This document shows positions 12,033 to 21,800 of a DNA stretch of 64,000 nt, one piece after another. Position numbers and translations under genes: made by a program. This DNA is from an uncultured Bacteroidota bacterium. GTDB taxonomy: Bacteria; Bacteroidota; Bacteroidia; Flavobacteriales; Flavobacteriaceae. The notes beneath the pieces are model-generated. The model had not been told where the DNA came from and did not search any database. It saw only the letters and a program-made list of their open reading frames with translations. Position 1 is the stretch's first letter; each line of letters begins with the position of its first letter. Where the stretch lies: positions 1-64,000 of the forward strand of contig CAJWHM010000005.1 of the NCBI GenBank assembly GCA_913041125.1, given 5' to 3'.

Positions 12033-12923
12033 CTAAATTAAATGTCTAAGATTTTTTTTAAAATAAGTTGCTGAGGTAGCAGCGCTTTCCATATCAGTTG
12101 AGGCAAAATTTCCTCCTTGTTCTATATAATAGTATTTCATGCCACTTTTTTTAGCATCAGGAAGAATCTTTGCATAATCTATAGATCCATTTCCTAATTC
12201 ACTATAGTCTCTAGTAATTTTATCCATGTCTTTAATATGCCACATAACATATCGGCCAGGATGTTTATCTACTAACTCTTTTGGTGTTTTTCCAGAATGT
12301 ATAACCCAATACATATCCATTTGAAGTTTTACCAAATTTTTGTCTGTTATTTTCATTAAAATTTCATGCCCAGTAGTACCTCCCCAATTTTGAAATTCAT
12401 ATCCATGATTGTGATATGCAAATCCAAGTCCTGCAGATTTGACTAACTCTCCTATTAAATTTAGTTTATCCGCCAAAACTTTAAAACTTTCTGGATTTCT
12501 CCTTTCTGGATGAACCCATGGCCATGTAATAAAAGGGGCGTTTAATTTCTTAGATGCTGAAATACAATGATCAACAAACCATTTTAATTCATCATCTGAT
12601 GAATTAAAATATTCAGAAAATCCGAAATGACCACTGGTCGTTGTTAAATTCAAATCATCTAAAATTTCTTTAAATTCAGGTATTTTGAAACCATAAATCT
12701 TTTTTGTCTTAGGATTGAATCCATATGTTTCAAAATCTTCATAACCCATTTTTTTTAATTTTTTCAAAGTATCTACAGGATCTTTTGCTAGGGCATCACG
12801 AACTGTAAAAAGTTGAAGACCCATTTTATATTTGGGAGTTGCAGAATACAAAATTTGGGGGACTCCAGCAAAGGTAACCCCAGCCAAAGTAGTCATTTGA
12901 TTTATAAAACTTCGCCTACTCAT
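12033..12923 (-). CDS. Sugar phosphate isomerase/epimerase (xylose-isomerase-like TIM barrel) with twin-arginine-like signal
   Basis: MSRRSFINQMTTLAGVTFAG leader; 'LGFAYHNHGYEFQ', 'QMDMYWVIHSG', 'MWHIKDMD'. Confidence 0.88.
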   Translation of the reverse strand: MSRRSFINQMTTLAGVTFAGVPQILYSATPKYKMGLQLFTVRDALAKDPVDTLKKLKKMGYEDFETYGFNPKTKKIYGFKIPEFKEILDDLNLTTTSGHFGFSEYFNSSDDELKWFVDHCISASKKLNAPFITWPWVHPERRNPESFKVLADKLNLIGELVKSAGLGFAYHNHGYEFQNWGGTTGHEILMKITDKNLVKLQMDMYWVIHSGKTPKELVDKHPGRYVMWHIKDMDKITRDYSELGNGSIDYAKILPDAKKSGMKYYYIEQGGNFASTDMESAATSATYFKKNLRHLI

Positions 12924-13033: not shown

Positions 13034-14422
13034 ATGAAATTTCTTGATGATGCGGAGCCTTTTCGAATAAAAATGGTTGAACCCATAAAAAAAACAACAC
13101 GAGAAGAAAGAGAAAAACTTGTTAAAAAAGCTGATTATAATATCTTTAAAATTCCTGCTGAAAATGTTTTTATCGATATGCTTACGGATAGTGGCACTTC
13201 AGCAATGAGTAGCAAACAATGGGGAGGAATAATGACAGGTGACGAATCTTATGCTGGAAGTTCAAGTTTCTATCATTTAAGAGATTCTGTTCAAGACATT
13301 ATGGGATTCCCATATGTACAACCCACTCATCAAGGAAGAGCTGCAGACTTTATAATGTCTCAGCTTTATGCCTCAAAGGGTGGTTATATTCTTGGCAATC
13401 TACATTTTGATAGTTTTAAAGGTCACTCAGAAATTGCGGGCTCAATTCCCATAGATTTGATTATTGAAGAGGGTCGCACGGCAAATTCTAATCCACACCC
13501 TTTTAAAGGAAACATGGATATAGAAAAATTAAAAAATTTTATTGATGAAAAAGGAAAAGAAAATATTCCCTTAATTATAATAACAGTAACTTCTAATGGT
13601 AACGGTGGTCAACCAGTTTCTATGGAAAACATTAGGACTGTTTCAAAAATAGCCAAAACAAATCAAATACCTCTAATGATTGATGCAGCTCGTTTTGCAG
13701 AAAATTGTTATTTCATTAAAAAAAGAGAAAATGGTTATGAAAATAAATCCATTAAGGAAATAGCAAATGAATTATTTTCTTATGCAGATGGATGTGTTAT
13801 GAGTTCAAAAAAAGACGGTCTAGTTAATATTGGAGGATTTATTTGTACAAAACATGAAGAATTATTCCCAATGATCAACCAATTGGCAATAATCAATGAA
13901 GGTTTTGTTACCTATGGAGGCATGAGCGGAAGAGATTTAGAAGCACTAGCCATTGGACTTCAAGAGGGTATAGATGAAGAATATTTAAAATATAGAATCG
14001 AGCAGGTACAATATCTAGGTGAAGAATTATCAAAAAAAGGAATTCCAATAATTTTACCAACAGGTGGTCATGGCGTTTATGTAGATGCACAAAAATTTTA
14101 TCCTCATATTCCTCAAAGTGAATTTCCTGGACAAGCTCTTGTTGTTGAGTTATACAAAACAGCAGGTGTCAGGGGAGTTGAGTTGGGCTCTTGTGCATTT
14201 TCTAAAAAAAATAAAGAAACTGGTGAGATTATTTATCCTGATTTAGAACTTGTAAGGTTAACTGTGTCTCGAAGAGTTTACACGAATAGGCACATGGATG
14301 TTGTAATAAACGCTCTTGATGATGTTTTTAAGAGAAGAGATCAAATGAAGGGCTTAAGGCTCACCTATGAAGGGCCAATTATTAGCTTAAGACATTTTAC
14401 TGCCAAATTTGAAATGATATAG
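13034..14422 (+). CDS. tnaA: Tryptophanase-type PLP beta-eliminating lyase (tryptophanase/tyrosine phenol-lyase family)
   Basis: Full-length family similarity; PLP lysine region 'FSYADGCVMSSKKDGLVNIGG'; C-terminal RHFTAKFEMI. Confidence 0.9.
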   Translation: MKFLDDAEPFRIKMVEPIKKTTREEREKLVKKADYNIFKIPAENVFIDMLTDSGTSAMSSKQWGGIMTGDESYAGSSSFYHLRDSVQDIMGFPYVQPTHQGRAADFIMSQLYASKGGYILGNLHFDSFKGHSEIAGSIPIDLIIEEGRTANSNPHPFKGNMDIEKLKNFIDEKGKENIPLIIITVTSNGNGGQPVSMENIRTVSKIAKTNQIPLMIDAARFAENCYFIKKRENGYENKSIKEIANELFSYADGCVMSSKKDGLVNIGGFICTKHEELFPMINQLAIINEGFVTYGGMSGRDLEALAIGLQEGIDEEYLKYRIEQVQYLGEELSKKGIPIILPTGGHGVYVDAQKFYPHIPQSEFPGQALVVELYKTAGVRGVELGSCAFSKKNKETGEIIYPDLELVRLTVSRRVYTNRHMDVVINALDDVFKRRDQMKGLRLTYEGPIISLRHFTAKFEMI

Positions 14423-14429
14423 TAGAATT

Positions 14430-15587
14430 ATGAATACATCTTCTTTTAACTTCTTTACCCCAACAAAACTTATTTTTGGCCCAGGAAAACTAAACGATTT
14501 AAAGGAGATAGCTCCAAATTATGGGCAAAAATGTCTTATTGTTTCAAGACCTAAAAAAGGCTCTCTAAAAAACACATACTTAAGGATAGAAAAACTTTTA
14601 AATTCAGTTGATATTGAAGTCTTTTACTTTGATGAAATTGTTCCAAATCCAACTTTAGAAGGAATAAATAAAGGAGTTGCTATTGCAGCAGAAAATAAAG
14701 TTGATTTTATTTTAGGAGTTGGAGGTGGATCTGTAATGGATTCAGCTAAACTAATTGCTCTATTATATGAATCAAAAGGTGTCATTGATTGGAAAGCTGC
14801 TTTCTCGAATTATGACCATCCTTTTTCATTTATAAAATCAAAGCCCTCCAGTTTACCATTCTTAGCTGTCTCAACTACATCTGGAACAGGATCACAGTGT
14901 ACTCAAGCGGCTGTAGTGAGTGATACAAAAAATAAAGAAAAAATTACTCTTTTTCATCTAGATCTATTCCCTAAAGCTGCAATAATAGATCCTGAATTAA
15001 TGCTAACAGTTCCAGATAGAGTTACGGCTGCAACAGGATTTGATGCTTTCACACATGCTTTTGAAAGTTATCTTGGAGGTAGAACATCCCCACTTACTGA
15101 ACAGCTTTCTCTTCAGTCAATCAAATTAGTAATAGAGAATTTACCAAAGGCAATAAATGAGCCTAACTCTATTGAATATCGAACAAGTCTTGCATGGGCT
15201 GATACAATTGCAGGTATTTGTTTATCCAATGGCGGTGCTGACATTCCACATCCTTTAGGTGAGATAATCGGTGGCATCTGTCAAAGAATACCTCATGGAG
15301 AAACCTTAGCTATGGTTTATCCTAAGTTTCTCAACTATAAGAAGAATATCGCAATAGATAAATTTGAAACAATTGCAAATTATTTAGGACTTGAAAAAAA
15401 ACCTGAAGCTTTTGTGAATAAGGTTATTGAGTTATTAAATATTACTTCTTTGTCTGAATCTCTTGAAAAGGCAGAAATCAATGATTTGGAAAAAAATGAA
15501 ATTCTCTCTCATCCTTTATTAAAAAATTTAGATCCAAAAAACGAACAGACCATCTTTGATATAATGAATCACAGTATTAACCCTTAA
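14430..15587 (+). CDS. Iron-containing alcohol dehydrogenase
   Basis: GVGGGSVMDSAK; metal ligand motif GFDAFTHAFESY, HPLGE, PHGETLAMVYP. Confidence 0.95.
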   Translation: MNTSSFNFFTPTKLIFGPGKLNDLKEIAPNYGQKCLIVSRPKKGSLKNTYLRIEKLLNSVDIEVFYFDEIVPNPTLEGINKGVAIAAENKVDFILGVGGGSVMDSAKLIALLYESKGVIDWKAAFSNYDHPFSFIKSKPSSLPFLAVSTTSGTGSQCTQAAVVSDTKNKEKITLFHLDLFPKAAIIDPELMLTVPDRVTAATGFDAFTHAFESYLGGRTSPLTEQLSLQSIKLVIENLPKAINEPNSIEYRTSLAWADTIAGICLSNGGADIPHPLGEIIGGICQRIPHGETLAMVYPKFLNYKKNIAIDKFETIANYLGLEKKPEAFVNKVIELLNITSLSESLEKAEINDLEKNEILSHPLLKNLDPKNEQTIFDIMNHSINP

Positions 15588-15595
15588 TAAGACTA

Positions 15596-16297
15596 ATGAA
15601 AAAAATAAAAATAGCAGCAGGATTAGCTCATGTAGATTATGGTCATATTGCAGATTTAGTCAAAAAAGCAACTTCCGCAGGTTCAGATTATATACATTCT
15701 GATGCTGCCGATATGCACGATTTAAAAAACATGCAACTTATGGGAGGACATCAAATTATTGATGGAATTAGAAAACATACAGATCTTCCTATAGAATGTC
15801 ATATTTACACAAAAACTTGTGATCTTTTATTCATAGATAAACTGGCTGAAGTTGGAACAAATATGTTAATTCTACCTGCTGAACATTTTATTGGTGCGCC
15901 ACTTGCTTACATAATTAATTGGTGTAGAGAACGCTCAATGAAAATTGGTTTAACTGTTGGACTATACACCCCTTTATCTTTTGTCGAAGAATCAATATAT
16001 GATATCGATCGTCTCCATATTGTAGTACACGGAGTTGATGAAACTGACGGAAAAGATAATTGGGGTTGGAGAAGGTCATGCTTAGATTTATTAAAAAGAG
16101 CAAGAAAATTAGTAGATGAAAAAAATCCTAAATGTGAAATTGCAATTGATGGAGGAATAAGGGCTGATAATCTAGCTCCATTAGTTTCATGTGACCCCGA
16201 TGTAATTGTGTTATCGTCAGCTATTTTCAAAGATACTGATGGAATTCATACTGCATTAAAAAAATGTAGAAATGCCATTGAAAAAGCTCAGAATTGA
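15596..16297 (+). CDS. Ribulose-phosphate 3-epimerase-like TIM barrel, divergent
   Basis: Conserved candidate metal ligands IHSD, ECH, IDGGI; canonical NPGFGGQ loop absent. Confidence 0.8.
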   Translation: MKKIKIAAGLAHVDYGHIADLVKKATSAGSDYIHSDAADMHDLKNMQLMGGHQIIDGIRKHTDLPIECHIYTKTCDLLFIDKLAEVGTNMLILPAEHFIGAPLAYIINWCRERSMKIGLTVGLYTPLSFVEESIYDIDRLHIVVHGVDETDGKDNWGWRRSCLDLLKRARKLVDEKNPKCEIAIDGGIRADNLAPLVSCDPDVIVLSSAIFKDTDGIHTALKKCRNAIEKAQN

Positions 16298-16313
16298 ATA
16301 AAAAATAAATCAA

Positions 16314-16742
16314 ATGGAACCTTCGTTTATATTGCTTGATCAAAATTTTAAAAATAAATCAGAAGCATTAATAAATCTAGTTGAAATTCTGCATAATAAT
16401 GGTTGTTTGAATAACAAACAAAAATATCTTAAATCCATTATTGAAAGAGAAAAAATTCTATCAACTTATTGTGGCCATAATATTGCTATCCCACATGCGA
16501 TTTCAAAAGCTGTTGAGAAAATAAGCTATGGCTTCTGTAGAACAAATAGTATGGAATGGGATAAAAATGATGATCCCGTTAAATACATTTTAATACTTGC
16601 TATACCTGATATTGAAAAAAAAAGTGATAATTATCATATTGACCTAATGTCCCAAGTTGCAAGTATAGCTCTGGAGGAAGATGTCAGAAATATTTGGGAA
16701 AAAGCTATAACCGAAAAAGAAATTTTAAAAACATTTCAATAA
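16314..16742 (+). CDS. PTS fructose/mannitol-type EIIA domain protein
   Basis: Phosphorylatable His in 'GHNIAIPHAIS'; length and position in PTS operon. Confidence 0.88.
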   Translation: MEPSFILLDQNFKNKSEALINLVEILHNNGCLNNKQKYLKSIIEREKILSTYCGHNIAIPHAISKAVEKISYGFCRTNSMEWDKNDDPVKYILILAIPDIEKKSDNYHIDLMSQVASIALEEDVRNIWEKAITEKEILKTFQ

Positions 16743-16753
16743 TAACTTTTAAT

Positions 16754-17815
16754 ATGAATTTTTGGAAAGATACAGTTAATATTTTTAAAGAAACTGGAAC
16801 TCATTTTAGAACAGGAGTATCCTACATGCTACCAATCCTTCTCATTGGTGGAATGGTAGGTAGTTTAGCAGTGTTAGGTGGAGGTGATTATTCAGATGGT
16901 TCTATTTGGAAAATATTTAAAGACGTTGGAGCTATAGGATTGAAATATTTTGTCCCTATTATGGCAGCTTACACTGCATACAGTATTTCTGATACACCCG
17001 GTATTGCTCCTGGCTTTATTGTAGGAATTTTAGCTCAACAAATAGATACTGGATACTTAGGTGCTCTTCTTGGAGGAATTCTAGTTGGATATACAACCTA
17101 TATGTTAATGAAATTAGATCTGCCTGAGATAATTCAAAGTACTTGGGGATTTATAGCACCTGTTTTTAGTACACTAATTGTAGTAATATTTATGGTCTAC
17201 TTACTTGGCCCTCCCATAGCTTGGCTTATGGAATCTATTTCTTCTTTTTTATCAAGCCTTGGTGAAGAAGGTTCTGCTATAATGGGTGGAGTGATGGGTT
17301 TTCTTGGAGGAATTGATTATGGAGGCCCATTTAGTAAAACTCAAAGTACTTTTGCAACAGCTGTAATGGACTTAGATCTTTATGTGCCTTTAGGTATTTG
17401 TGGAAGCATAGTAATCATTCCCCCATTAGGAATGTGTTTAGCTACTTTTTTACAACCTAAATTGTACACAAAAGTTGAAAGAAAATATGCGAAAAGCTCA
17501 TGGATATATTCAATTATTGGTGGCTTTACAGAAATTGTTATCCCACTCGCCGTTGGTGATCTAGTTCGTGTTACAATAGCAACTGTTTTAGGATGTACAG
17601 TTGCTGGAACTATCGCTGGAATCTTTTTATTGGAATTAAGTACTCCTGTTCTTGGAATTGCTCAATGGTTTTTTTATGATAAACCATTAGTATTTGTAAT
17701 TTGTGTTGTCGTAGGATCTCTAATTACAGCTCTTACAGCAAATTTTTTAAAAAGCATTAACAAAAGAGACATCGATGCCCTTGACGCTGCTGATACTGAA
17801 ATTAACAAAACCTAA
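16754..17815 (+). CDS. PTS fructose-type EIIC permease
   Basis: Polytopic; 'FRTGVSYMLPILLIGGMVGS', 'GGIDYGGPFSKTQS'; ORF track start 16694 overlaps EIIA, so ATG 16754 (MNFWKDTV) preferred. Confidence 0.9.
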   Translation: MNFWKDTVNIFKETGTHFRTGVSYMLPILLIGGMVGSLAVLGGGDYSDGSIWKIFKDVGAIGLKYFVPIMAAYTAYSISDTPGIAPGFIVGILAQQIDTGYLGALLGGILVGYTTYMLMKLDLPEIIQSTWGFIAPVFSTLIVVIFMVYLLGPPIAWLMESISSFLSSLGEEGSAIMGGVMGFLGGIDYGGPFSKTQSTFATAVMDLDLYVPLGICGSIVIIPPLGMCLATFLQPKLYTKVERKYAKSSWIYSIIGGFTEIVIPLAVGDLVRVTIATVLGCTVAGTIAGIFLLELSTPVLGIAQWFFYDKPLVFVICVVVGSLITALTANFLKSINKRDIDALDAADTEINKT

Positions 17816-17826
17816 TTTAAATTTTT

Positions 17827-18138
17827 ATGAAAATAGCCTTAGTAACTGCATGTTTAGCAGGAGTAGCCCACAGTAAGATGGCTTCTTTAGCTCTTAAAAA
17901 AGAAGCTCAAAAAAGAGGATATGAAATTTGTATTGAAGAACAAGGTGGACATAAAATCCCAACTAGAATATCAAACGAAGAAATAGAGCAATCTGATGTT
18001 GTTATAATTGCGAAAATGGTTTCTATTTCAGGTAAAGATAGATTTAAAGGAAAAAAAATTTTAGAAGTTAGTGTTAATGAGGCTGTGAGAAAGCCTGTTT
18101 TAATAATTGATAAAGCAGAACAACTAATCAAAGATTGA
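17827..18138 (+). CDS. PTS fructose-type EIIB
   Basis: N-terminal phospho-Cys motif VTACLAGVAHSKMA (canonical family form VTACPTGIAHT). Confidence 0.9.
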   Translation: MKIALVTACLAGVAHSKMASLALKKEAQKRGYEICIEEQGGHKIPTRISNEEIEQSDVVIIAKMVSISGKDRFKGKKILEVSVNEAVRKPVLIIDKAEQLIKD

Positions 18139-18141
18139 TTA

Positions 18142-18405
18142 ATGATAAGTCTAGCTATAAATATCAAAGATGAAATTGGTTTTCATGCAAGAACTGCGTC
18201 ACTATTTGCCAAGAAAGCTTCAAAATTTGAATCTGAAATTTTTATTGAATTTAAAGGAAAAAAGGTAAATGCTAAAAGCACATTATCAATAATGACCCTA
18301 GGGGTTAAATCTAATGATGAAATTGTTCTTATAACAAATGGAAATGATGAGAAAGAAGCACATAATGCTTTAATCTCATATATTGAAAATAATTTTAATG
18401 ATTAA
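18142..18405 (+). CDS. HPr family phosphocarrier protein
   Basis: His-15 motif GFHARTASLF; Ser-46 region NAKSTLSIMTLG. Confidence 0.92.
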   Translation: MISLAINIKDEIGFHARTASLFAKKASKFESEIFIEFKGKKVNAKSTLSIMTLGVKSNDEIVLITNGNDEKEAHNALISYIENNFND

Positions 18406-20039
18406 AACATATCAAAACACTTAAAGGAATAGTAGCTAGTTCAGGTATAGCGATTGGTAAAGCGAAGTTTATTGTAGATAATAAATCTATTGAAATATTT
18501 AATAAATATAGTACTGAAAGTGAAGCTGAATTAATTCGGTTTAGAAAGGCTATTATAGAAGCAACAAAAAAAAATAGATCTTATAAAAAAAAGATTTTTT
18601 CTTCACTTTCTTCTCAAGAATTAGAAATTTATGATGCATACGAGAGTATAATTAATGATCCTGATGTTATTGATCAAACAATTGAAATAATTAAAAGGGA
18701 TAAATTTTCAGCTGCATTTGCATATTTTAATGTTGCTCAAAACTTTATTAATGAACTTAAAAAAATTGATGATCCCTATCTTAAACAAAGAGCCCAAGAC
18801 ATCGAAATGATTTCAAAATTAGTTATTGAAATTTTAGAAGATAAAAAAAAATCACCGTCGAAGATTAACATTCCATCTATTGTAGTAGCCGAAAAAATTA
18901 ATCCTAATACTCTTGCAGAATTGGAATCAAAAAATTTAATTGGCCTAATAACAAGTAAGGGCGGGCTTACTGACCATACTTCAATTATTGCTAAAGCTAT
19001 GGGTGTCCCCTACCTTATAAATGTGGAAAATGCATCTGAAAAAATAAAGAATGGAGATTTTTTAATTATTGACAGTAATGAAAAAAGTGTAAAAATAAAT
19101 CCTGAAAAAGAAACAATTTTAAAATATAAAAAAATAATATCTGATCAAGAGATTAAGAATAGAAAACAGCTTTTAAATTCAAAAGACAAAGCTTTTACTA
19201 AATCTGGAAAAACTATAAATATTATGGCTAATGTTGGGTCATTAGAAGATGGCAAAAAAGCTTTTGAATATGGGGCAGACGGTATAGGATTATTAAGGAC
19301 AGAGCTTTGTTTTATAAATAGTAGTGTTGTTCCAGAGGAAGAAACACATTATAAAACTTATAAAAAGATACTTGAAACTATCCCAGAAAAAAAATGTACT
19401 CTTCGTTTGCTAGACTTTGGTACAGATAAGAAAGTTTCTTATTTACCTGTTTCTAATGAGCAGAATCCAGCCATTGGCAATAGAGCTCTAAGGCTTGGTT
19501 TTATGTATTACGAAAGTCTTTTAAAGCCTCAAATAAGATCATTCCTTAGACTATCAAAGATATTCGAAATCAAGATTCTCTGTCCCATGATTACAACGCC
19601 TAATGATTTGATTCAAGTTATAGATGCGATAAAACAAGAACAAGAAGAATTAAATTTATTAGGTGAAGAAATAAATGAAATTCCCGAAATTGGTATAATG
19701 GTTGAAGTTCCTAATGTGGCAATGAATCCTTTAGATTTTGTTTCAACCGCAGACTTCTTTTCATTTGGGACTAATGATTTAGCTCAATTTTTAATGGCTG
19801 CTGACAGAACTAATGAAATGGTATCACATTATTTAGAACAAGCAAATCAAACCGTTGTTAAATTGATAAAAGACTTTGCTAAAGCACTAAAACCTTACAA
19901 AAAAGAGATAAGTATATGTGGAGAATTAGCATCTAATCAATCTTATTTAAAAGAATTTATTGATTTAGGACTTAGTAGTTTGAGTGTAACTCCTAGTCAA
20001 ATTCCAAAAATCAAAACAAAAATTTTATCACTTATATAA
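18398..20039 (+). CDS. ptsI: PTS enzyme I (PEP-protein phosphotransferase), apparently frameshifted at the extreme 5' end
   Basis: ORF track begins at 18807, but the EI reading frame is open from 18402 (LKHIKTLKGIVASSGIAIGKA...). Phospho-His motif GGLTDHTSIIAKAMG; LRTELCF; no ATG/GTG/TTG in frame between 18402 and 18807. Confidence 0.85.
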
Positions 20040-20114: not shown

Positions 20115-21800
20115 ATGAATAATGATTATGATGCTATAGTGGTTGGATCTGGAATTAGTGGTGGATGGGCTGCAAAAGAATTTTGTGAAAAAGGATTGAA
20201 AACCCTTGTTATTGAAAGAGGTCGTATGGTAAAACACATAGAAGATTATACAACTATGAATAAAGATCCATGGGATATGAAATTTGGGGGGAGATCTTCA
20301 CAAGAGGTATTAAAGGATTATAATAAACAAAGAAGGTGGGGAGTTAATGAGGGTAACAGGCATTTTTACAATAAAGACTCCGAATATGATTACGACGAGG
20401 ATAAACCATTTGACTGGATCCGTGGTACTCAAGTTGGAGGTCGTTCTTTAATATGGGGAAGACAAACTTATAGGTGGAGTGACGATGATTTTGAAGCAAA
20501 TTTAAGAGATGGTATAGCTGTGGATTGGCCTGTTCGATATAAAGAAATTGCTCCCTGGTATTCATATGTAGAAAAATTTATTGGTGTAAGTGGTGAGCCT
20601 CTTAACTTACCTCATCTTCCAGATAGTGAGTTTTTACCTGCTATGGAACTGAATTGTGTGGAAAAAGAATTACGTAATTCTATAGCTAAAAACTACTCAA
20701 ATCGATTTCTTACAATTGGAAGAGTGGCTCATATAACAAAGGGAAGTAAAGATGGAGCTGGAAGAAATGCTTGTCAGTATAGAAATCGATGTGACAGAGG
20801 ATGTCTTTTTGGGTCTTATTTTAGTTCGAATTCCTCTACCCTTCCCGTTGCAGAAAAAACAGGTAATCTTACACTAAGAACTGATTCAATTGTAACTAAT
20901 ATCATTTATAATGATGAAACCAAAAAAGCAACAGGTGTAAGAGTCGTTGACACTCACACAAAAAAAATATCAAAATTTAATGCAAAAGTTATTTTTTTAT
21001 GTGCTTCGTCAATGGCATCTACAGCAATATTATTAAACTCTAAATCAAATCGTTTTCCAGATGGATTAGGAAATGACTCAGGTGAATTAGGACATAATAT
21101 AATGGATCACCAGTTAGGGAGTGGTGCTTCGGGAAAATTTGATGGATACAATGACAAATATTATTATGGTCGAAGACCTAATGGATTTTATATTCCAAGA
21201 TTCCGTAATATAGGTGGAAAAGAAAAAGGAGTTAATTTTTTGAGAGGTTATGGTTACCAGGGAGGTGCAGGAAGAGGTGATTGGTCAGAAAGTATAGCTG
21301 AGCTTGGGTATGGATCTGAATTAAAAAAGGCATTATTAAAACCAGGCAATTGGACTATTGGAATGGGAGGTTTTGGTGAAGTATTGCCATATCACGAAAA
21401 CAAAATGTATTTAGATTATAATAAAATTGACACTTTCGGTTTACCTAAAATTGTTTTCGATGCTGAATTTAAAGAAAATGAAATAAGAATGAAAGAGGAT
21501 TGGAAAATTCAAGCGGCAGAAATGTTAGAAAAAGCGGGTTGTAAAGAAGTGACAATTTTTGATTCAAACGCTCCCATTGGAAAAGGCATACACGAAATGG
21601 GAACAGCTAGAATGGGAAAAGATCCAAAAACATCTGTTCTTAATAAATATAATCAAATACATAGTGTCCCTAATGTTTTTGTTACTGATGGTGCTTTTAT
21701 GACTTCTTCAGGAACACAAAACCCATCATTAACATATATGGCTTTTACTGCAAGAGCTGTTAATTATGCTGTTAATGAATTAAAAAAAATGAACTTATAA
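20115..21800 (+). CDS. GMC family oxidoreductase
   Basis: N-terminal VGSGISGGWAAKEF dinucleotide fold; C-terminal HEMGTARMG...NVFVTDGAFMTSSGTQNPSLTYMA. Confidence 0.93.
   Translation: MNNDYDAIVVGSGISGGWAAKEFCEKGLKTLVIERGRMVKHIEDYTTMNKDPWDMKFGGRSSQEVLKDYNKQRRWGVNEGNRHFYNKDSEYDYDEDKPFDWIRGTQVGGRSLIWGRQTYRWSDDDFEANLRDGIAVDWPVRYKEIAPWYSYVEKFIGVSGEPLNLPHLPDSEFLPAMELNCVEKELRNSIAKNYSNRFLTIGRVAHITKGSKDGAGRNACQYRNRCDRGCLFGSYFSSNSSTLPVAEKTGNLTLRTDSIVTNIIYNDETKKATGVRVVDTHTKKISKFNAKVIFLCASSMASTAILLNSKSNRFPDGLGNDSGELGHNIMDHQLGSGASGKFDGYNDKYYYGRRPNGFYIPRFRNIGGKEKGVNFLRGYGYQGGAGRGDWSESIAELGYGSELKKALLKPGNWTIGMGGFGEVLPYHENKMYLDYNKIDTFGLPKIVFDAEFKENEIRMKEDWKIQAAEMLEKAGCKEVTIFDSNAPIGKGIHEMGTARMGKDPKTSVLNKYNQIHSVPNVFVTDGAFMTSSGTQNPSLTYMAFTARAVNYAVNELKKMNL

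Follow-up and report, generated by a model that had tools for sequence, protein, structure and literature searches.

In Salmonella, fra and gfr are fructosamine pathways that are fed by a phosphoenolpyruvate (PEP):sugar phosphotransferase system (PTS). The cryptic sgc operon of E. coli (sgcRBCAQEX) joins a PTS to a protein resembling ribulose-phosphate 3-epimerase (RPE) and to a peptidase-like protein, and the likewise cryptic E. coli operon frw (frwABCD, fsaB, gldA) encodes EIIC and EIIB components together with a dehydrogenase of the iron-type alcohol dehydrogenase (Fe-ADH) type and a transaldolase-family enzyme. The DgpA-DgpBC/C-glycoside deglycosidase (CGD) systems form a 3-oxo sugar, after which a metal-dependent TIM barrel resembling sugar isomerases/epimerases breaks the bond between sugar and aglycone, as far as the cited accounts describe it (PMC8563793; PMC10539306). 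Bacteroidetes were reported to have no PTS (PMC2405797). Here we describe a cassette of eight genes at positions 13034-20039 of contig CAJWHM010000005.1 (assembly GCA_913041125.1) from an uncultured member of the Flavobacteriaceae, within a window of 64,000 nucleotides, which is the whole stretch of DNA analyzed. The cassette encodes a complete PTS next to an RPE-like barrel, an Fe-ADH and a tryptophanase-like lyase. As a tentative proposal, held with a little less than even confidence and built on sequence comparison, we suggest that it encodes everything needed to catabolise a sugar-amino-acid conjugate which stems from protein or peptides and would be phosphorylated on its sugar.

All eight genes lie on the plus strand, are separated by 3-16 nt and match their named families in Pfam profile searches, as an earlier note made from the sequence alone had described:

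13034..14422, plus strand: tnaA-like pyridoxal phosphate (PLP)-dependent beta-eliminating lyase of the tryptophanase/tyrosine phenol-lyase (TPL) family, in a clade of its own (PF01212)
14430..15587, plus strand: Fe-ADH, variant subfamily without one canonical metal-ligand His (PF00465/PF25137)
15596..16297, plus strand: RPE-like metal-dependent TIM barrel, marker of the cross-phylum pathway (PF00834)
16314..16742, plus strand: PTS EIIA, fructose family (PF00359)
16757..17815, plus strand: PTS EIIC of the fructose family, nearest to NCBIfam model PRK10478 (PF02378, TIGR01427)
17827..18138, plus strand: PTS EIIB, fructose-like (PF02302, PRK10474)
18142..18405, plus strand: HPr (PF00381)
18411..20039, plus strand: Enzyme I, EI, with a probable ATC start at 18411 (PF00391/PF02896; TIGR01417 with 347 bits for the open reading frame from 18807)

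The likeness to the DgpA-DgpBC/CGD systems is confined to the proposed logic, in which an oxidoreductase is followed by a metal-dependent TIM barrel and no glycosidase is involved. In the cited accounts those systems pair an oxidoreductase of the Gfo/Idh/MocA type with a heterodimeric CGD that has other Mn ligands, and they act on unphosphorylated plant C-glycosides, whereas the cassette encodes an Fe-ADH variant and an RPE-type barrel without a beta subunit, with a substrate proposed to be phosphorylated; the Gfo/Idh/MocA oxidoreductase and the CGD alpha and beta subunits had no Pfam match in the cassette. The frw EIIC and EIIB are related to those described here, but neither sgc nor frw contains a lyase, HPr or separate EI, and their partner genes differ. 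SgcE retains a shortened RPE-like loop and is not orthologous to the cassette barrel. The fructosamine routes share PTS import of a sugar-amino-acid conjugate, but the cassette has no deglycase and differs in its PTS family and lyase.

The phospho-relay motifs are all readable in the translations of EIIA (AIPHA), EIIB (TAC), EIIC (GFTE), HPr (GFHAR) and EI (GGLTDH and CGE), so that all five components of a PEP:sugar PTS are present with their phospho-acceptor residues. EIIA, EIIB and EIIC were assigned to the fructose family, as PF00359 and TIGR01427 exceed their cut-offs (EIIC 186.9 bits against 157.55 for TIGR01427); TIGR00848, TIGR00829 and PRK10474 also match PTS components, all under their cut-offs. 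The genome carrying the cassette is 79% complete and holds a single copy each of HPr and of the EI C-terminal domain (PEP-utilizers_C); searches for both detected no second PTS elsewhere. The view that a PTS is rare in marine flavobacteria agrees with the finding of a full-strength EIIC in 4/301 Flavobacteriaceae genomes, from two genera only, with two more matches that are weak and partial. In a survey of HPr across the phylum most matches fell outside Bacteroidia, so that it says little about this class; among the Flavobacteriaceae listed only the genome studied here had a match.

The gene order tnaA-like, Fe-ADH, RPE-like, EIIA, EIIC, EIIB, HPr, EI is common to the genus and a second genus, and is therefore far from chance; it was also found in Maribacter and other Flavobacteriaceae. 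It is constant in nearly all loci that are not cut by contig ends, while the flanking genes vary between groups, so the gene-neighbourhood comparison asked for in the earlier note returned a conserved rather than a random order. Among 39 genomes of the genus, 16 hold a second, RPE-like protein on top of canonical Rpe. The closest cassette-free relative, L208, carries a scar (L208:5866-6303, G330:C2) in which tnaA codons 28-73 run into EI codons 441-544 with intact flanks, and its GMC neighbour is 94% identical. In L209 the site is empty and the iolE-like and GMC genes abut directly. Gain and loss of the cassette as a block argue for one pathway. The description of the unit as a self-contained and portable PTS is borne out, and an entire PTS accompanies a single catabolic route, coming and going together with it. 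The GC content of the cassette (0.316 against 0.307 for the window) gives no sign of foreign origin. A GMC oxidoreductase (window 20115-21800) and an IolE-like TIM barrel (12033-12923) flank the cassette; we regard both as neighbours and not as members because they stay syntenic where the cassette is absent. In Flavobacteriaceae bacterium NBU2977, transposase-like fragments were seen by eye soon after the EI gene (L068:15038-15793).

A scan of 85,488 genomes for the RPE-like family retrieved orthologues mostly with 69-77% identity in Bacillota and about 60% in Vibrio/Photobacterium, and Fe-ADH is the steady partner of the RPE-like protein across these groups and Bacteroidota. The import module accompanying this core is exchangeable. 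Bacteroidota, including the Bacteroidales locus L077 and Salinivirgaceae L075, have a fructose-type PTS that brings along a dedicated HPr and EI, and most Bacillota and Vibrio have a glucose/alpha-glucoside-type EIIBC (with EIIA) and a PepV-like M20 dipeptidase. In Acidaminobacter (L071) and Lachnospiraceae (L185/L186) import falls to an oligopeptide (Opp) ATP-binding cassette (ABC) transporter, which is joined by Xaa-Pro-type amidohydrolases and by a kinase of the APH type, for which a search against the PDB returned no match; L185/L186 additionally encode M3 and M29-like peptidases, and tnaA also belongs to the Opp-type arrangement. Peptidases are usual companions of the core, and no glycosidase was recognised among the annotated cluster genes. 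Since the PTS is replaced by a transporter plus kinase, a phosphorylated intermediate appears to matter, and since it is replaced by a peptide importer with peptidases, the substrate appears to be attached to a peptide or a single amino acid. Among the downstream partners in other phyla are an FSA/TalC-type transaldolase or, in Vibrio, Tal, Tkt and RpiA, which hints at entry into the pentose-phosphate pool. The RPE-like/Fe-ADH pair, combined with exchangeable modules for import and phosphorylation, points to a pathway that spans several phyla and has not been described before. A search of plasmids returned a single record, from Photobacterium.

The RPE-like protein has the fold and the metal and acid-base residues of ribulose-phosphate 3-epimerase and D-allulose-6-phosphate 3-epimerase. 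Its AlphaFold2 model (predicted local distance difference test, pLDDT, 92.6) has RPE structures as best fold matches, and H34, D36, H69 and D185 are invariant in 32 sequences and line up with their counterparts in Rpe. In contrast to RPE, the phosphate loop NPGFGGQ is replaced by GVDETDGKDNWGWR, the APSIL motif is also replaced, the score of 90.3 bits lies below the RPE equivalog cut-off of 212.6, and the protein is only 23-28% identical to canonical Rpe from the genus; the genome has a separate canonical Rpe. In the enzyme that the earlier note called epimerase-like, the metal and acid-base residues are thus retained and the phosphate loop is not, which makes the normal pentulose-5-phosphate an improbable substrate. 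The Fe-ADH subfamily keeps GFDAFTH and HGE but has a residue other than His four positions ahead of PHPL, where a His is canonical; in the alignment GAxxPHPLxE replaces H..(3)..H, and the ligand set of Asp and three His is incomplete. Judged from these residues, in both enzymes the general chemistry is retained and the substrate contacts are altered.

The lyase scores 673.7 bits against the PRK13238 subfamily and falls under the equivalog cut-offs for tnaA (528.6/825.8 bits) and TPL (596.2/750 bits). When the protein is aligned with TnaA of E. coli and with TPL, the PLP Lys, the carboxylate-binding Arg and the catalytic residues prove to be kept. It has Asp at the TPL Thr124 position, Leu at Arg381 and His (in LRHFTA) at Phe448, positions that we take to be those separating tryptophanase from TPL; the tryptophanase set (PLP Lys, carboxylate Arg, Asp, His) is thus present and the TPL set is not. 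The fold and these residues are shared with TnaA and TPL, but the cassette enzyme has its own motifs (FD[ST]F, GF[VI]T, [VI]SRR), with clade-specific changes near the ring pocket, and the copies from Bacteroidota and Bacillota cassettes form a clade (support 100/99) apart from the other tryptophanases of the phylum. A lone Neobacillus member of this clade has a regulator-like gene on one side and a permease of the aromatic type, closest to AroP, on the other, with no sugar genes. The tryptophanase-type residues, the separate clade and the AroP-like neighbour suggest that the released amino acid is probably tryptophan or a derivative. It had been left open whether the lyase belongs to the pathway at all; its retention in nearly all Bacteroidota copies and a clade that travels with RPE-like/Fe-ADH in Bacillota rule out a mere passenger. 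A regulator-like protein of about 210 residues, without NCBIfam assignment, adjoins the cassette-type tnaA in four Bacillota:

L185:3077-3733: regulator-like protein
L186:7078-7740: regulator-like protein
L187:7683-8321: regulator-like protein
L080:7728-8354: regulator-like protein

A signal-bearing protein of about 540 residues with HExxHxxGxxH and a second HExxH motif is linked to the cassette and adjoins it in L063, L011/L070 and L075; in the genome studied here it is encoded elsewhere:

G000:C19:9285-10895 (L139, the genome of the window): secreted metalloprotease, two zinc motifs, weak Reprolysin_3 match
L063:14564-16174: secreted metalloprotease, two zinc motifs, weak Reprolysin_3 match

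It is present in exactly the four Flavobacteriaceae genomes with a full-strength EIIC, that of the window included, and in 0/297 others of the family. Within the genus it occurs in 10/16 genomes with the RPE-like protein and in 2/23 others (p=9e-4, a type of value that kinship inflates). A structure prediction from three sequences had a mean pLDDT of 46 and was not used.

In the proposed pathway the secreted metalloprotease would help to release the conjugate, which the EI-HPr-EIIA-EIIB-EIIC relay, itself complete, would import while phosphorylating its sugar. The Fe-ADH variant would oxidise the phosphorylated sugar at a position that is conjectural, and the RPE-like enzyme with its enediolate-forming residues may then use the new carbonyl to part sugar from amino acid, by analogy with the 3-oxo C-glycoside deglycosidase route, so that no glycosidase would be needed. 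The sugar phosphate would enter the pentose-phosphate pool, as the partners in other phyla suggest, and the tnaA-like lyase would cleave the freed amino acid, giving pyruvate and ammonia besides an aromatic leaving group. The leading single candidate, although unlikely when taken by itself, is C-mannosyl-tryptophan, a mannose-tagged tryptophan of animal proteins. Among known conjugates it is favoured because the lyase, the peptidases and the missing glycosidase are all in keeping with it, as is the known way in which a metal-dependent TIM barrel cleaves C-glycosides via a 3-oxo sugar. A route for it across Bacteroidota, Bacillota and Vibrionaceae, equally doubtful, would form the 6-phosphate through the PTS or through Opp plus kinase, split the sugar-indole C-C bond by Fe-ADH and the RPE-like enzyme and end in a dedicated tryptophanase. 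C-mannosyl-tryptophan has been found in marine sponges as well as ascidians, and it supports the growth of a mixed bacterial culture through a mechanism stated to be unknown (PMC8433626; PMC12990085). The literature search found no genes for its catabolism, no described bacterial degradation pathway and nothing on the gene set of the cassette. If the assignment is true, the cassette would provide genes for a degradation known only from enrichment culture, and enzymes acting on a human kidney-function marker that is thought not to be degraded by the body. The cassette is also present in Maribacter halichondriae, which was isolated from a sponge; fruA, ptsH, ptsI, hxlA and tnaA are listed as unique to the strain without being linked together (PMC10942906), and this hxlA is probably the RPE-like gene.

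Several observations weigh against a conjugate and against C-mannosyl-tryptophan in particular. The lyase is absent from many Bacillota clusters and all Vibrio clusters, where the amino acid may therefore be one other than tryptophan, and the Flavobacteriaceae locus L058 has, on a 71 kb contig, the RPE-like gene and all PTS genes without adjacent tnaA and Fe-ADH, both of which are present in its near relative L059. Within the genus, 6/16 genomes with the RPE-like protein have no metalloprotease (several of them are incomplete), and the family-level match between metalloprotease and EIIC rests on two genera only. No known C-glycoside-cleaving protein was found in the cassette by Pfam, a phospho-glycosidase outside the cluster could equally be expected, and a pentulose phosphate would explain Tal, Tkt and RpiA more simply than would a hexose set free from the conjugate.

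A rival reading is a PTS route that handles an uncommon ketose, polyol or sugar acid in its free form, as in E. coli sgc or frw, in which the RPE-like protein would be a 3-epimerase on the phosphorylated ketose, Fe-ADH would act on a polyol or aldehyde and the lyase would be unrelated, yielding pyruvate and ammonia. The RPE fold and catalytic residues, the Tal, Tkt, RpiA or transaldolase partners, the presence in sgc of an RPE-like protein and a peptidase-like gene next to a PTS, and the grouping of a related EIIC/EIIB with FsaB and GldA in frw, speak for it. The altered phosphate loop, the lyase clade travelling with the pathway, the ABC transporters for peptides, the peptidases (M20, M3, M29-like and Xaa-Pro type) and the linked metalloprotease speak against it. 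The conjugate is preferred because it explains the peptidases, the peptide transporters, the lyase and the metalloprotease better, and a plain sugar substrate, as the earlier note had assumed, is possible but unlikely. An ordinary fructose PTS is most improbable. EIIA, EIIB and EIIC do belong to the fructose family, and the PTS of M. halichondriae was annotated as fructose-specific (PMC10942906), but 1-phosphofructokinase (FruK) is missing from the cassette, and the four PfkB proteins of the incomplete genome all fall far under its cut-off (TIGR03828); one exceeds the ribokinase cut-off, one is nearest to 2-keto-3-deoxygluconate kinase models and two have no assignment. The core also pairs with quite different PTS types, or with no PTS, in other phyla, so that the suspicion of a non-fructose PTS was well placed.

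Two further readings keep the bond to an amino acid and open it in another way. In the catabolism of Amadori or Heyns (glycated) amino acids or peptides the RPE-like protein would enolise a 1-amino-1-deoxyketose 6-phosphate and free the amine, a chemistry suited to an enediolate-forming enzyme and in keeping with peptide import, peptidases and the PTS-fed fra and gfr pathways. This is quite improbable, as Pfam searches found no FrlB/FraB-type SIS deglycase in the cassette, the lyase has tryptophanase-type residues and a clade of its own, and free-living pelagic flavobacteria are an odd setting for Maillard products. Enzymes of the tryptophanase/TPL family accept O- and S-substituted Ser and Cys, and the lyase might therefore itself open a phosphorylated O-glycosyl-serine or S-glycosyl-cysteine by beta-elimination, with Fe-ADH and the RPE-like enzyme processing the freed sugar phosphate. 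The kept PLP and carboxylate residues, the clade-specific pocket changes and the absence of a glycosidase would be accounted for, but many clusters with the core have no lyase, the indole-type Asp and His are kept and the one clade member beside an AroP-like permease has no sugar genes, which makes this reading more doubtful still.

The EI frame is open from 18402, but its first ATG is found only at 18807, with no ATG, GTG or TTG in the first ~135 codons. A frameshift or pseudogene was ruled out, as the missing start codons are conserved in relatives. In 16/25 loci (window 18402-18420, L049-L057, L060-L062 and L066-L068) no ATG, GTG or TTG precedes the conserved GI.AS motif of EI, and in every one of these 16 an ATC or ATT lies five codons ahead of it, near the HPr stop. 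EI may thus start at a conserved near-cognate ATC/ATT codon (ATC at 18411 here), with translational coupling to HPr.

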